Source: Shouchella patagoniensis
GTDB lineage: Bacteria; Bacillota; Bacilli; Bacillales; Bacillaceae_D
Length of the DNA: 64,000 nucleotides
NCBI RefSeq assembly: GCF_002019705.1
Contig: NZ_KV917377.1
Coordinates: 804,565 to 868,564, forward strand
Direction: 5' to 3'
Shown: piece by piece, positions 22,987-33,171 of the stretch
Layout of the letters: every line of letters starts with the position of its first letter
How positions within the stretch are numbered: position 1 is the first letter of the stretch
Translations under genes and position numbers: made by a program
The notes under the pieces: generated by a model
The model's input: the letters and a program-made list of their open reading frames with translations, nothing else
Database searches by the model: none
Told to the model about the DNA's origin: nothing

Positions 22987-23593
22987 GATAGGTCATCCTT
23001 AAACGTTCTATTAAAAAAGCAACTGAATCAGTATCTGGAATAAATAAAAGCAATCCATCAATCTTTTGATTAATTTCTTGAATAGCCATTGTCGTTTCCA
23101 TTAATACAAACTGTTCGTCTTCAGCCAAATAAAACGCGGCTTCAGCAAGCAGTGCTCCCGCAAAATCAATAGATAACTCTGTTACAAGAGGATAGCAATT
23201 TACCGTAGCTATTTCAGATAGAGCTGTTAAATATGAACCTATCACGATGTTCCCAACTTCTTGAAAAGCAGAATGTGCTAACTGATCGTCTTCTAATGAA
23301 CTAGACATGTGTTTTAAATGCCCTTTTAATAACTGAGTTGCCAACATTTGTGCTGAATGAATGGAAGCAATAAAAAACATTCCACCAGCTACTTCGCCAT
23401 TAACAGGTGCATAAACCGCTGCCCATTTTTGATGTTGAGCTGGAGCAAGCCTTGGTAAATCTTCAAGCTGAAAATAAGATGCTTGAGGAACTTTCATCGA
23501 GACCCCGCAAGCCAAAAAATCAGATAATGCCGTAGCTGCGTAACCTGTACTAATATTCGCCACTTCTTTCATCACATCTAATTGATCATTCAC
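22973..23593 (-). CDS. cheC: CheY-P phosphatase CheC
   Basis: CheC dephosphorylates CheY-P and is the partner of CheD in the CheC/CheD/CheY adaptation system. The start is GTG with AAAGGAGG upstream, giving 206 aa (209 in B. subtilis). Both pseudosymmetric active sites have the E-x2-N pattern: Glu10/Asn13 in KEVANISTG and Glu112/Asn115 in QEVGNIVIG. The start overlaps the cheB stop (GTGA). In relatives cheA and cheW lie between cheB and cheC; here they do not. Confidence 0.95.
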
Positions 23594-24486
23594 GGTTTTC
23601 CTCCTTTGCCGACAAGCCACTCGCCTATCTCGTTATTTGGTAAAACCTCATCTACCAATCCTGTTTTTATTGCAGCATTAGGAATCCCAAAAATAGTAGC
23701 AGTTTGTTGTGATTCGGCTATAATTGTGGTTTGACTAGACTGTTTTAGTTTCGCTAAAGCCCCAGCGCCATCGCTACCCATCCCAGTTAAAAGGACTACA
23801 ATTTTCCATTCATACAATGCAACAGACTCAAATAAATAGTTAATGGAAGGGTGATACAGGTCCGTTCCTTCGGGCTCATTTATGTGGATTACAGCATCCT
23901 TATCACCACTCACTTGAATGGTCATCTGCTTCCCCCCGGGAGCTACATAAGCTGTTCCCGCTTCAAGCCGCTCTAAATGATGAGCTTCTTTTACCCGAAT
24001 ACCCACAATTTGGTTTAGCCTTCTAGCAAGCACTCTTGTGAAGTCAGCAGGCATGTGTTGAGCAATAACGATCGGCACATCAAATGTCGCAGGTAACGGT
24101 TTTAACACTGTCTGCAAGGACAATGGACCACCGGTTGATGAGCCAATTGCGACGATTCCTCCTGTTAAGGTGTTCGCTCGTTCAGAGTGAAGTTGATTGA
24201 TATGCATCCATATTTTCCGCTTTACATTAGATGGATTGGTAACTTCGAAAGGAACGTGCCTACCTGAAAAGGATGGTTTCATATCACCTTCTTGCACAAC
24301 GATTAATTTATGATTTGGGAAAACATTTATATTCTCCTCATGAATGGGTGCATAAATGATAATGTCATAGAATGGCTCTTCCACATGCTTCGGATTCGAA
24401 AATAAAGTGACTGATTCTCCTTCAAGAAGCAAATAGATGAATTGACATCTAAAATTGGACGAACTAACTATCGCTATTTTTTTCAC
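23590..24486 (-). CDS. cheB: CheB methylesterase with degenerate receiver domain
   Basis: CheB removes methyl groups from chemoreceptors and deamidates them. The C-terminal catalytic domain (about 108-298) is intact: Ser117 in GSSTGGP, His144 in AQHMPADF and Asp239 in GMGSDG. The N-terminal domain occupies the receiver position but is shortened and has lost the phosphorylation site. The acidic pair aligns with Ser8-Ser9, the acceptor Asp with Ala46 (DIIIYAP) and the invariant Lys with Asn84 (VTNPS). The usual CheA-controlled activation therefore looks impossible. The GTG start overlaps the upstream stop, and the stop overlaps cheC. Confidence 0.9.
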   Translation of the reverse strand: MKKIAIVSSSNFRCQFIYLLLEGESVTLFSNPKHVEEPFYDIIIYAPIHEENINVFPNHKLIVVQEGDMKPSFSGRHVPFEVTNPSNVKRKIWMHINQLHSERANTLTGGIVAIGSSTGGPLSLQTVLKPLPATFDVPIVIAQHMPADFTRVLARRLNQIVGIRVKEAHHLERLEAGTAYVAPGGKQMTIQVSGDKDAVIHINEPEGTDLYHPSINYLFESVALYEWKIVVLLTGMGSDGAGALAKLKQSSQTTIIAESQQTATIFGIPNAAIKTGLVDEVLPNNEIGEWLVGKGGKP

Positions 24487-25067
24487 ACGTACAAGATCTG
24501 CTTAACAAATAAGCTAGCACTTTCATAGACGCTATCAACAAAATCATCTGTGGGTTCTATACAAACAGCACCAAGATTCACTACGTCCCTATTCAAAAAA
24601 CGCCTTACAGAAGAATCCATATTGGATAAAGCTTGATGGACCTTTTCCTTATCAAGTGCACCCAACCCGATTAAGTAAATACAGTGGGGTAATTCTTTTT
24701 TTATAAACTGATAGAGCTTTAGTAAATGTTCTTTTTCCGGCCTTACGAATACAATAAGTGGCAACTGCTGCCAACCAATCTTTTTTTCTTGTATTGTTCG
24801 CACATAGAAGATAACGTGGATATTTATTGCAGAAATCGTTTTTATTGTTTCTATTGTAAATAGCTGATCCTGTACTTTTGGACGAAACAATTTCCTTACA
24901 TTGTCTGTCCCAACAATAACAGCTTGATAGCCATAACTACTTAACGCTTCAACAACCATTTCTAGCACCGCTGCATCATCGGATTCACAAAGGCAAACAT
25001 CAAAGGTTTTTGTTGAGGTTTGTCTACTCTTCAGCTCTCTCAAACCTTGCGCTTGATCCATTGGCAT
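24483..25067 (-). CDS. Degenerate FlhG/YlxH-like protein lacking the P-loop
   Basis: It occupies the flhG (ylxH) position between flhF and cheB. It is 194 aa, against about 298 for B. subtilis FlhG. The N-terminus keeps the DQAxxLR motif (residues 4-10) with which FlhG stimulates the FlhF GTPase. The deviant Walker A expected next (KGGVGKS) is replaced by a CESDDAAV segment at about residues 27-34. The central stretch LPLIVFVRPEKEHLLKLYQF and the segment FLNRDVVNLGAVCIEPTDDF still align with FlhG. The C-terminal amphipathic membrane helix is missing. The start is ATG with GGAGG six bases upstream. No frameshift is seen, so it looks maintained. Confidence 0.75.
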   Translation of the reverse strand: MPMDQAQGLRELKSRQTSTKTFDVCLCESDDAAVLEMVVEALSSYGYQAVIVGTDNVRKLFRPKVQDQLFTIETIKTISAINIHVIFYVRTIQEKKIGWQQLPLIVFVRPEKEHLLKLYQFIKKELPHCIYLIGLGALDKEKVHQALSNMDSSVRRFLNRDVVNLGAVCIEPTDDFVDSVYESASLFVKQILYV

Positions 25068-26046
25068 TCGCCACCTCCACACTTAACCAGTTCAATAATT
25101 TAGCTTCGTCCGGAAAACAAATATCTTCTGGAACGCTTTGACCTGTCGTTACACAACCAATTGGTAAGTTTGTATGATACAGCAATTCTAATAACGTCCC
25201 CAGGGATCTTGTTTCATCTTTTTTTGTTAATATTAGTCCTGCGATGACCTCTGAATCAAATGAGTCTATAATTTGAATTAAGTCAGATGCTTTTGCTGCC
25301 AAACTAAGAGCAACAAACAATTCTGCTTGTTCTTTTCGCTTTAAATAAGCCAACAACTCGGCAGATAACCCTGTTTCTAAATAATTTCTACCAGCCGTAT
25401 CAATAAAAATAATATCTGCATCAGCTTCATCTTCACATAATCGCATTAAATCAAATTCATCATAAGCAACGTGGACTGGAATCTCCAGTATTTCTCCATA
25501 ACGTTTTAATTGATCAACTGCAGCGATCCGATATGTATCCAATGTAATAAACGCAGCTTTTTTCTTATTCATAAATATCTCTTCAGACGCTAGCTTAGCA
25601 ATCGTTGTTGTTTTCCCCACACCAGTCGGACCGGCAATAAACAATAACCTTTTTTCTCCCGGTCTTTTGCACGTTACATGTAAGTTTGAAGAAAGCACTC
25701 GATTAAGTAAGGTTGAATAATTAGTAATACCGCTCTTTTCTATCATATTAGCCGTTAACATCAAATTATTTCTAACACCTTCACTTATACCCATTTGCCG
25801 TAGATGAGCTGATAGGCGCTTTTGAAGCGTCGATTTACTAAGCGTTTTTATCGAGTCTACCTCTCTAGTTGATTCCTTCACTTCCATTCCGGCAGTTATT
25901 TGATACTGTGTTTTCTCAAAAAAACCAAACCAACCACCGGTTTTTACTTCACGAGAATGTAGAATGACCGCTTCCGTTCCGAGTTCTATCCGAATTGCTT
26001 TTACTGCTTGCTCCATCGTCGGTGCAACAAACTGCCTAATCTTCAT
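25024..26046 (-). CDS. flhF: Flagellar SRP-type GTPase FlhF
   Basis: FlhF is an SRP-family GTPase that helps place and number flagella. The 340-aa protein has a short N-terminal B region, a helical N domain and the G domain with [34 protein letters not shown] and TKKDE. All nucleotide-binding motifs are intact, in contrast to the FlhG-like neighbour. Its ATG overlaps the flhA stop (ATGA) and its end overlaps the start of the FlhG-like gene by 44 bp, indicating tight translational coupling. Confidence 0.95.
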   Translation of the reverse strand: MKIRQFVAPTMEQAVKAIRIELGTEAVILHSREVKTGGWFGFFEKTQYQITAGMEVKESTREVDSIKTLSKSTLQKRLSAHLRQMGISEGVRNNLMLTANMIEKSGITNYSTLLNRVLSSNLHVTCKRPGEKRLLFIAGPTGVGKTTTIAKLASEEIFMNKKKAAFITLDTYRIAAVDQLKRYGEILEIPVHVAYDEFDLMRLCEDEADADIIFIDTAGRNYLETGLSAELLAYLKRKEQAELFVALSLAAKASDLIQIIDSFDSEVIAGLILTKKDETRSLGTLLELLYHTNLPIGCVTTGQSVPEDICFPDEAKLLNWLSVEVANANGSSARFERAEE

Positions 26047-31950: not shown

Positions 31951-33171
31951 TTATTCGTTTAATTTATTTATACGTTCTTTCTTACTAACAATATCGGTGA
32001 TTCGCACCCCAAAGTTCTCATCAATGACAACTACTTCCCCTTTAGCGATTAGACGGTCATTAATAAGCACATCTACGGGTTCACCCGCTAATTTATCTAA
32101 TTCTATAATTGAACCTTGAGTAACGCTTAAAATATCACGAATTGTTTTCTTCGTACGCCCTAATTCCACTTTTACTTCAAGAGGAATGTCGAGAAGCATA
32201 TCTAGATTTTCCATTTCAGCATCTGGAAGTTTTGTTTTTTCAAAGTTTGAGAAGACTGCTTTCTCAACCATTTGCTCTGTTGCTGGTTTTAAAGAAGAAC
32301 CAATTTGCTGATTCGGTCGCGCTGTTTCATTTATCTCTGAAGTTAACCCCGTTCGTTGTTGATTCCTTTTTATGGGTTCTTCAACAATTGGTAGTTCCAA
32401 ATCAGGGGTTTCTACAGTTGAAGTATGCCCTTCAAGAAGTGCATTCGCATAGCCCTTTCCAAATGGTACACTAATTAACTGCATTAACTTCGAATCTATT
32501 AAATTGCCCACTTTTAAAGTGAATGTAATCGAAATTAAGTGTTCGACATTAGGGACATAGTTATTTGTCGCTTGCTCTTTAAAGCTGACAACTTCAACAT
32601 CTGGGGGTGAAATATCTACGCGACGGTTAAACAACGTCGACATCGATGTAGAAGCTGACCCCATCATTTGGTTCATTGCTTCTTGAACTGCACTCGTATG
32701 CATTTCCGAGAGTTCTTGATTCGGACTTTCTCCATTCCCCCCGAGCATCAAATCCGCAATAATAGCTGCATCCTCTATAGTAATGACAAATAAATTGGAG
32801 CCTTCAAATCCTTCCGTGTACTTGACATGCACGATTACATGGGGATGAGGAAACAATTCACTTAATGTTTCTTTGCTAATAGCGGTTACGACTGGTGTTG
32901 TAATTTCCACTTTTTGATTTAATAGAGCCGATAAAGCTGTAGCAGAACTTCCAAATGATATATTGCCAATCTCGCCGATTGTATCTTGTTCCATATGATC
33001 TAGGAATTGATTTACATCTAATTCAACAGCCGGAGAGTCTGTTTGACTTTCTGGTGGCTGTTCCACGCTCTGATCCGTTTCTTGATTCAAAGCGCCTCCC
33101 TCTGTCTCTCGTTGAAGCCCTTTTAAGAGCTCATTAATTTCATCTTGGGAAAGCGGCTTATCATTCATCAT
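31951..33171 (-). CDS. fliY: Flagellar switch protein and CheY-P phosphatase FliY
   Basis: FliY is the FliN-containing C-ring protein of Bacilli with CheC-like phosphatase activity. The 406-aa protein has an N-terminal CheY-binding motif (LSQDEINELL), a CheC-type domain with two E-x2-N sites (GEIGNISFGSS and QEAMNQMMGSA), a linker (about 225-310) and a C-terminal SpoA/FliN domain with LDIPLEVKVELGRTKKTI. The ATG has GGAGGAACGG upstream. It overlaps fliM by 11 bp. Confidence 0.95.
   Translation of the reverse strand: MMNDKPLSQDEINELLKGLQRETEGGALNQETDQSVEQPPESQTDSPAVELDVNQFLDHMEQDTIGEIGNISFGSSATALSALLNQKVEITTPVVTAISKETLSELFPHPHVIVHVKYTEGFEGSNLFVITIEDAAIIADLMLGGNGESPNQELSEMHTSAVQEAMNQMMGSASTSMSTLFNRRVDISPPDVEVVSFKEQATNNYVPNVEHLISITFTLKVGNLIDSKLMQLISVPFGKGYANALLEGHTSTVETPDLELPIVEEPIKRNQQRTGLTSEINETARPNQQIGSSLKPATEQMVEKAVFSNFEKTKLPDAEMENLDMLLDIPLEVKVELGRTKKTIRDILSVTQGSIIELDKLAGEPVDVLINDRLIAKGEVVVIDENFGVRITDIVSKKERINKLNE

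Follow-up and report, generated by a model that had tools for sequence, protein, structure and literature searches.

A FlhG homologue without a P-loop in Shouchella and three further lineages, probably retained as an ATP-independent partner of FlhF

What remains for FlhG to do at the flagellum once its ATPase site is gone is the question raised by a 64,000-nucleotide stretch of the Shouchella patagoniensis genome (contig NZ_KV917377.1, positions 804,565 to 868,564), hereafter the window. Directly after flhF in its flagellar operon, as for flhG, lies a gene whose product lacks the P-loop, and an earlier note on this DNA had proposed that it is a pseudo-ATPase partner of FlhF. In the reading that we consider probable, the gene descends from a true flhG, and its product has been pared down to an FlhF activator that sits on the C-ring and needs no nucleotide. 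The evidence is that the protein is homologous to FlhG and shares its fold, that the ATP site is gone and the gene is under purifying selection, that the genus has no other match of FlhG strength, that two trees each require four changes of state, and that the activator residues are retained together with a tyrosine and K177 of the FliY-binding surface. From these we infer GTPase activation, FliY docking and absence of ATP binding.

The open reading frame (ORF) is intact from 24483 to 25082 on the minus strand and coupled to its neighbours, as the earlier note had described, overlapping flhF by 38 nt (counted from the family-conserved MDQ start at 25061) and cheB by 4 nt. Alternative starts lie at 25067 (MPMDQ) and 25082 (GTG). 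The DQAxxLR motif is also present as claimed (residues 2-8, DQAQGLR). The protein matches nothing above noise in Pfam, NCBIfam or PHROGs (best E values 0.13, 0.031 and 0.088), unlike FlhG from another genus of the same family, which matches ParA and CbiA in Pfam. None of the five P-loop-less FlhG proteins that we scanned had a Pfam match at E 0.01, and thus such genes are likely to pass unnoticed as hypothetical.

Plain hidden Markov model searches do not reveal the homology to FlhG, which emerges when profile is compared with profile, or fold with fold. An AlphaFold model made blind is a well-ordered domain with a FlhG/MinD-like fold, and its best match in the PDB was FlhG (FleN, the Pseudomonas FlhG, tied in one comparison). 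By hhalign, the Shouchella profile matched normal FlhG at E 1.5e-6 (probability 90), and a wider set gave 5e-7; the best of 60 column-shuffled controls reached E 0.01 (probability 4.1). The shuffled controls covered the Shouchella profile alone; profiles of the other P-loop-less lineages described below gave 3.7e-5 (g41, probability 71), 1.4e-23 (g113) and 1.9e-23 (g112). Searched against PDB sequences, the Shouchella profile returned one weak unrelated match only. Together, hhalign with its controls and the fold rule out an unrelated gene with a convergent motif, and the core alignment with FlhG that the note had drawn from the letters stands by both routes.

The nucleotide site is missing from this fold. 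Where the P-loop would be, the window protein reads CESDDAAV, and in the model just two residues separate the end of strand 1 (residue 24) from the start of helix 1 (residue 27), too few to accommodate a P-loop. In the VIA comparison, the alignment with FlhG ends at residue 264 of 4rz3, which we read as preceding the membrane-targeting sequence; the window protein has no such sequence. Both losses had been called correctly in the note. The altered pocket might still bind a nucleotide or another ligand and keep some switch behaviour, and losses elsewhere are indeed graded (g113 is full length, and the Walker B region of g112 still reads DLGSG), but the two-residue turn in the Shouchella model and the lack of any conserved P-loop substitute motif in the genus make this very improbable.

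The gene is retained across Shouchella. A homologue is present in 12 of 13 genomes (11 intact frames), in every case without the P-loop and beginning MDQAxxLR; the loss is common to the genus, and no sequencing or assembly error restoring KGGVGKS was found. In the family's other genera flhF occurs in 27 of 28 genomes, and the next gene carries SGKGGVGKSN in all 27, one of which was read across draft frameshifts (L028) and one of which is a shorter frame (L038). Ratios of nonsynonymous to synonymous substitution (dN/dS, NG86) in eight close Shouchella pairs were 0.089, 0.095, 0.095, 0.095, 0.133, 0.140, 0.166 and 0.186; the two remaining pairs gave 0.215 (dS 1.8) and 0.301 (near-identical, dS 0.007). 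Values for flhF and the cheB catalytic domain were similar in the same pairs, flhF being scored without the window's own pair. A decaying pseudogene, kept by chance or by its overlaps with flhF and cheB, could account for a late frameshift in the draft G008 copy and for the thirteenth genome (2.6 Mb), from which flhF and the P-loop-less flhG are both gone. Ratios far below 1 (0.09-0.19 in eight of ten pairs), a measure that the note had proposed for this purpose, point instead to retention, 18 of the 19 P-loop-less frames known from four lineages are complete, and in the S. clausii group the overlap with flhF is a single base, yet the motif is still kept. We thus regard decay as extremely improbable.

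A normal-FlhG profile found no replacement in the 13 Shouchella genomes. The best match in each (E 8.5e-35 to 4e-33) spans model positions 17-21 to 281 and therefore lacks the N-terminal motif. Every genome has three similar matches, in frames of about 265-400 aa, with a further one in G010 (E 7e-10, in a frame of 273 aa) and two more, both weak, in a 605-aa frame of G007. Identities were read in the window genome, where sequence and neighbours point to an Mrp-type protein, to MinD (encoded next to minC) and to Soj (next to a parB-like gene). None of the matches in the 13 genomes is as strong as normal FlhG, and a second complete flhG, for which the note had advised a search, is rejected.

Loss of the P-loop extends beyond Shouchella. 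Among 199 genomes of the order, FlhF was found in 189 (E 1e-30) and normal FlhG in 185 (E 1e-38), and five had FlhF without normal FlhG: two Shouchella, G074, G104 and G165. G074 carries a 144-aa P-loop-less FlhG in the slot, and three genus mates carry one too. In a widened set 366 of 397 genomes had a normal-FlhG match, possibly an overcount, as some matches in genus g28 near E 8e-39 may be MinD. Flanks of flhF were read in 30 chosen genomes, 13 of them with FlhF (three of the 31 order genomes lacking normal FlhG fell outside this set), adding G281 and G302, with 275 residues from DQA and GHSRNSSQS or similar in place of the P-loop, and G277, with 237 residues, whose sister G298 has normal FlhG. 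The order therefore holds three further P-loop-less lineages (g41, g112 and g113; seven genomes), and the 19 proteins fall in four families, each of which also has normal FlhG. Two other candidates for FlhF without FlhG were discarded: in G115, a draft, a frameshift interrupts a P-loop FlhG, and family f35, g103 has a normal FlhG. Additionally, G274 (L091) has a degenerate FlhF (GPSGGGKTT, no DTAGR) and no FlhG in the slot.

P-loop state maps as four changes on the FlhF tree (70 rows) and on the FlhA tree (24 rows), the latter grouping Shouchella with the normal-FlhG genome G017 (support 99/99). The losses in g112 and g113 are firmly separate. That in g41 is likely but not certain to be separate from the Shouchella loss, because approximately unbiased tests do not reject a joint clade (FlhF p 0.18; FlhA p 0.096) and the match between the two profiles (E 2.2e-6) is of much the same quality as that of either with normal FlhG. 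The pseudo-ATPase partner proposed in the note gains weight because three more lineages lost the P-loop and kept the same residues.

Which residues are kept bears directly on function. We took as conserved the 60 columns with a residue in at least 85% of 47 normal FlhG proteins (excluding the frameshifted L028, the short L038 and the f37 genomes), and as kept those with that residue in at least half of each lineage's members (frameshifted L002 being left out of Shouchella). Eight columns are kept in all four lineages: D, Q, A, L and R of DQAxxLR, and Y168, K172 and L211 in L024 numbering, the last a leucine beside the F215 position. DQAxxLR occurs in all 19 P-loop-less and all 47 normal proteins; alignment rows were selected by DQA..LR and trimmed to start there, so that this end is forced, and no P-loop-less candidate was discarded for lacking the motif. 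KGGVGKS is absent from all 19. The C-terminal membrane sequence is absent from the window protein and g41, and the ends of g112, g113 and the divergent G007 align with that region in one alignment, a second alignment placing the G007 end differently. According to the parts of PMC12327844 covered here, FliY binding by Geobacillus FlhG needs K177, R207 (once printed R277) and F215. K172 corresponds to K177, on numbering inferred from an offset of 8 at which all three residues fit the printed chain. Both this lysine and the tyrosine (Y168) are invariant in the 19 P-loop-less proteins, matches that lean on sequence alignment, with hhalign pairing the same residues in Shouchella. As aligned, the residues kept are those of ATP-independent functions.

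These patterns also bear on two other roles for the protein. It might be a pseudo-ATPase subunit that pairs with MinD, its nearest intact paralogue, and borrows an ATP cycle and membrane binding; a MinD gene adjoins minC and the MinD-like fold is retained, but two lineages have lost the switch segments, which we read as building the ATP sandwich dimer, and none of the Walker A columns is kept in all four (one serine survives in g113), so that such pairing seems improbable. Alternatively, the N-terminal activator peptide alone may matter, the rest being a stabilising remnant without C-ring binding. The universal DQAxxLR suits that idea, as do bodies that shrink to 140-159 residues in g41 and differ greatly among lineages. 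It is nevertheless unlikely given the invariant tyrosine and K177, an aromatic residue (F or Y) at the F215 position in 18 of 19 proteins, and a body that is under purifying selection and predicted to be well ordered.

Published work on FlhG fits a protein reduced to the activator. The same parts of PMC12327844 report that the first 36 residues of FliY are enough for FlhG binding, which is ATP-independent, while GpsB binding requires ATP; that hydrolysis-dead D65A FlhG in B. subtilis leaves hooks and flagella normally placed; and that loss of the DQAxxLR glutamine closely resembles flhG deletion. Drawing on conservation and on the B. subtilis work, we propose that an flhG descendant lost its nucleotide site and membrane anchor and was retained for two ATP-free jobs. 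FlhF dimers would load GTP, and the N-terminal DQAxxLR helix would enter the dimer and trigger GTP hydrolysis, while the remaining FlhG core would bind the C-ring protein FliY and so bring the activator to basal bodies as they form. In this scheme the C-ring would be the place where FlhF is turned off, and no ATP-driven cycle of dimerisation and membrane binding would be involved. MinD-like cycling would not take place because the ATP site and membrane sequence are lost, and the ATP-dependent GpsB link was probably lost too, or made ATP-independent. Control of flagella without a MinD-like ATP cycle, as the note had suggested, may thus operate in these bacteria.

Several observations weigh against this view. 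In the alignment used for the column counts, three of the four lineages still have D in the Walker B aspartate column (D134), which is deleted in Shouchella. On the FliY surface, 13 of the 19 proteins have F at the F215 position, five have Y and one has H, and R207 itself is not conserved, reading N in 25 of 47 normal FlhG and, in P-loop-less proteins, N in 16 and R in three. The dN/dS values of 0.09-0.19 lie somewhat above the 0.05-0.08 obtained for three pairs of normal FlhG (0.53 in a fourth pair, whose members are nearly identical), and in g113 the P-loop-less FlhG evolves faster than its FlhF (0.28 versus 0.11). In the parts of PMC12327844 covered, D65A FlhG is a constitutive dimer, so that ATP binding and dimerisation are not shown to be dispensable, and deletion of the membrane sequence from B. 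subtilis FlhG has a modest but significant effect. Finally, G104 and G165 keep FlhF with no FlhG in the slot, and the activator is therefore not always needed. In both genomes (L064, L065) a 439-aa FlhF lies beside a flagellar rod/hook-type gene, named by eye.

The P-loop-less gene lies in a minus-strand operon with fliY, cheY, fliP-Q-R, flhB, flhA, flhF, cheB, cheC, cheD and sigD, names that are our interpretation of the window ORFs (Table 1). A FliY N-terminal motif, LSQ or LTQ followed by DEI or EEI, occurs in the window and in G074, G281 and G277.

Table 1. Coordinates within the window of the P-loop-less flhG, its motifs and related genes (functional roles after the covered parts of PMC12327844)
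Feature	Coordinates	Strand	Basis and remarks
P-loop-less FlhG, 192 aa from conserved MDQ start	24483..25061	-	ORF open to 25082, homologues, fold
DQAQGLR, FlhF-activating motif, residues 2-8	25038..25058	-	alignment; function per PMC12327844
CESDDAAV, residues 25-32, where P-loop SGKGGVGKSN would be	24966..24989	-	alignment, predicted model
Y117-x-x-x-K121; K121 aligned with GtFlhG K177	24699..24713	-	hhalign, alignment; FliY-binding role of K177 per PMC12327844
N147 to F155, aligned with GtFlhG R207 and F215 positions	24597..24623	-	FliY-binding surface per PMC12327844
flhF, SRP-type GTPase, GTPase motifs intact	25024..26046	-	ORF, family match, alignment; overlaps flhG 38 nt
cheB, methylesterase domain, no receiver domain by Pfam	23590..24486	-	overlaps flhG 4 nt
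fliY	31951..33171	-	LSQDEINELL in first 36 residues, the stretch binding FlhG in Geobacillus per PMC12327844

The claim that FlhF keeps all its GTPase motifs, TKKDE among them, holds for the window and not for five other Shouchella genomes (L008-L012), in which the G3 motif DTAGR reads DT(A/P)GD in four and DTEGR in one. This change may alter GTP hydrolysis in the partner of P-loop-less FlhG. In CheB of the window, S. clausii and S. miscanthi, Pfam finds the methylesterase domain only, starting at residue 18 in S. miscanthi; CheB of the divergent G007 still has receiver and methylesterase domains (loci compared with the window: L053, L056 and L012). Shouchella CheB may thus be free of CheA control. 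The receiver domain is apparently lost in family f35, g103 too (L089, L090; judged by eye, locus cut), beside a normal FlhG, and CheB receiver loss and P-loop loss are therefore not coupled. CheW-domain proteins lie outside the flagellar operon (G000:C1:1146581-1147397 and 268440-268832); we interpret these loci, by frame length, as adjacent cheA and cheW and a cheV-like gene elsewhere.

In the parts of PMC12826062 covered, FlhG is treated as an ATPase and no P-loop-less form appears, nor did one appear in titles and abstract openings among the literature matches listed, a search that left out most subscription journals. The P-loop-less lineages represent natural separation-of-function mutants kept by evolution, which bear on the purpose of the FlhG ATPase cycle and reveal the residues indispensable to the flagellum. 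Additionally, ATP-free activation of FlhF could be reconstituted with their small proteins, and the lineages allow one to test directly whether the links to GpsB and to the membrane can be dispensed with. What they retain suggests that the activator switch, and not the ATP cycle, is the essential part of FlhG. We give an even chance to the broader view that several lineages independently turned a two-nucleotide FlhF-FlhG switch into a one-nucleotide switch, with FlhG a plain C-ring-docked FlhF activator, a protein counterpart of signal recognition particle (SRP) RNA, and the ATP cycle an optional extra serving peritrichous flagella.

Compared with FlhG (YlxH, FleN; Geobacillus thermodenitrificans 4rz2/4rz3), the window protein shares gene position, fold, the DQAxxLR helix, and the tyrosine and lysine of the FliY-binding surface, but is without P-loop, switch segments, Walker B and C-terminal membrane sequence, and has 192 residues versus about 290. 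With MinD it has the fold in common; MinD differs in possessing an ATP site and a membrane helix and in lacking DQAxxLR, and a separate intact MinD is encoded in the same genome. In function the window protein would resemble SRP RNA, the activator of Ffh-FtsY, an analogy drawn in the covered parts of PMC12826062: a cofactor, there an RNA and here a protein, sets off hydrolysis in a dimer of SRP GTPases.
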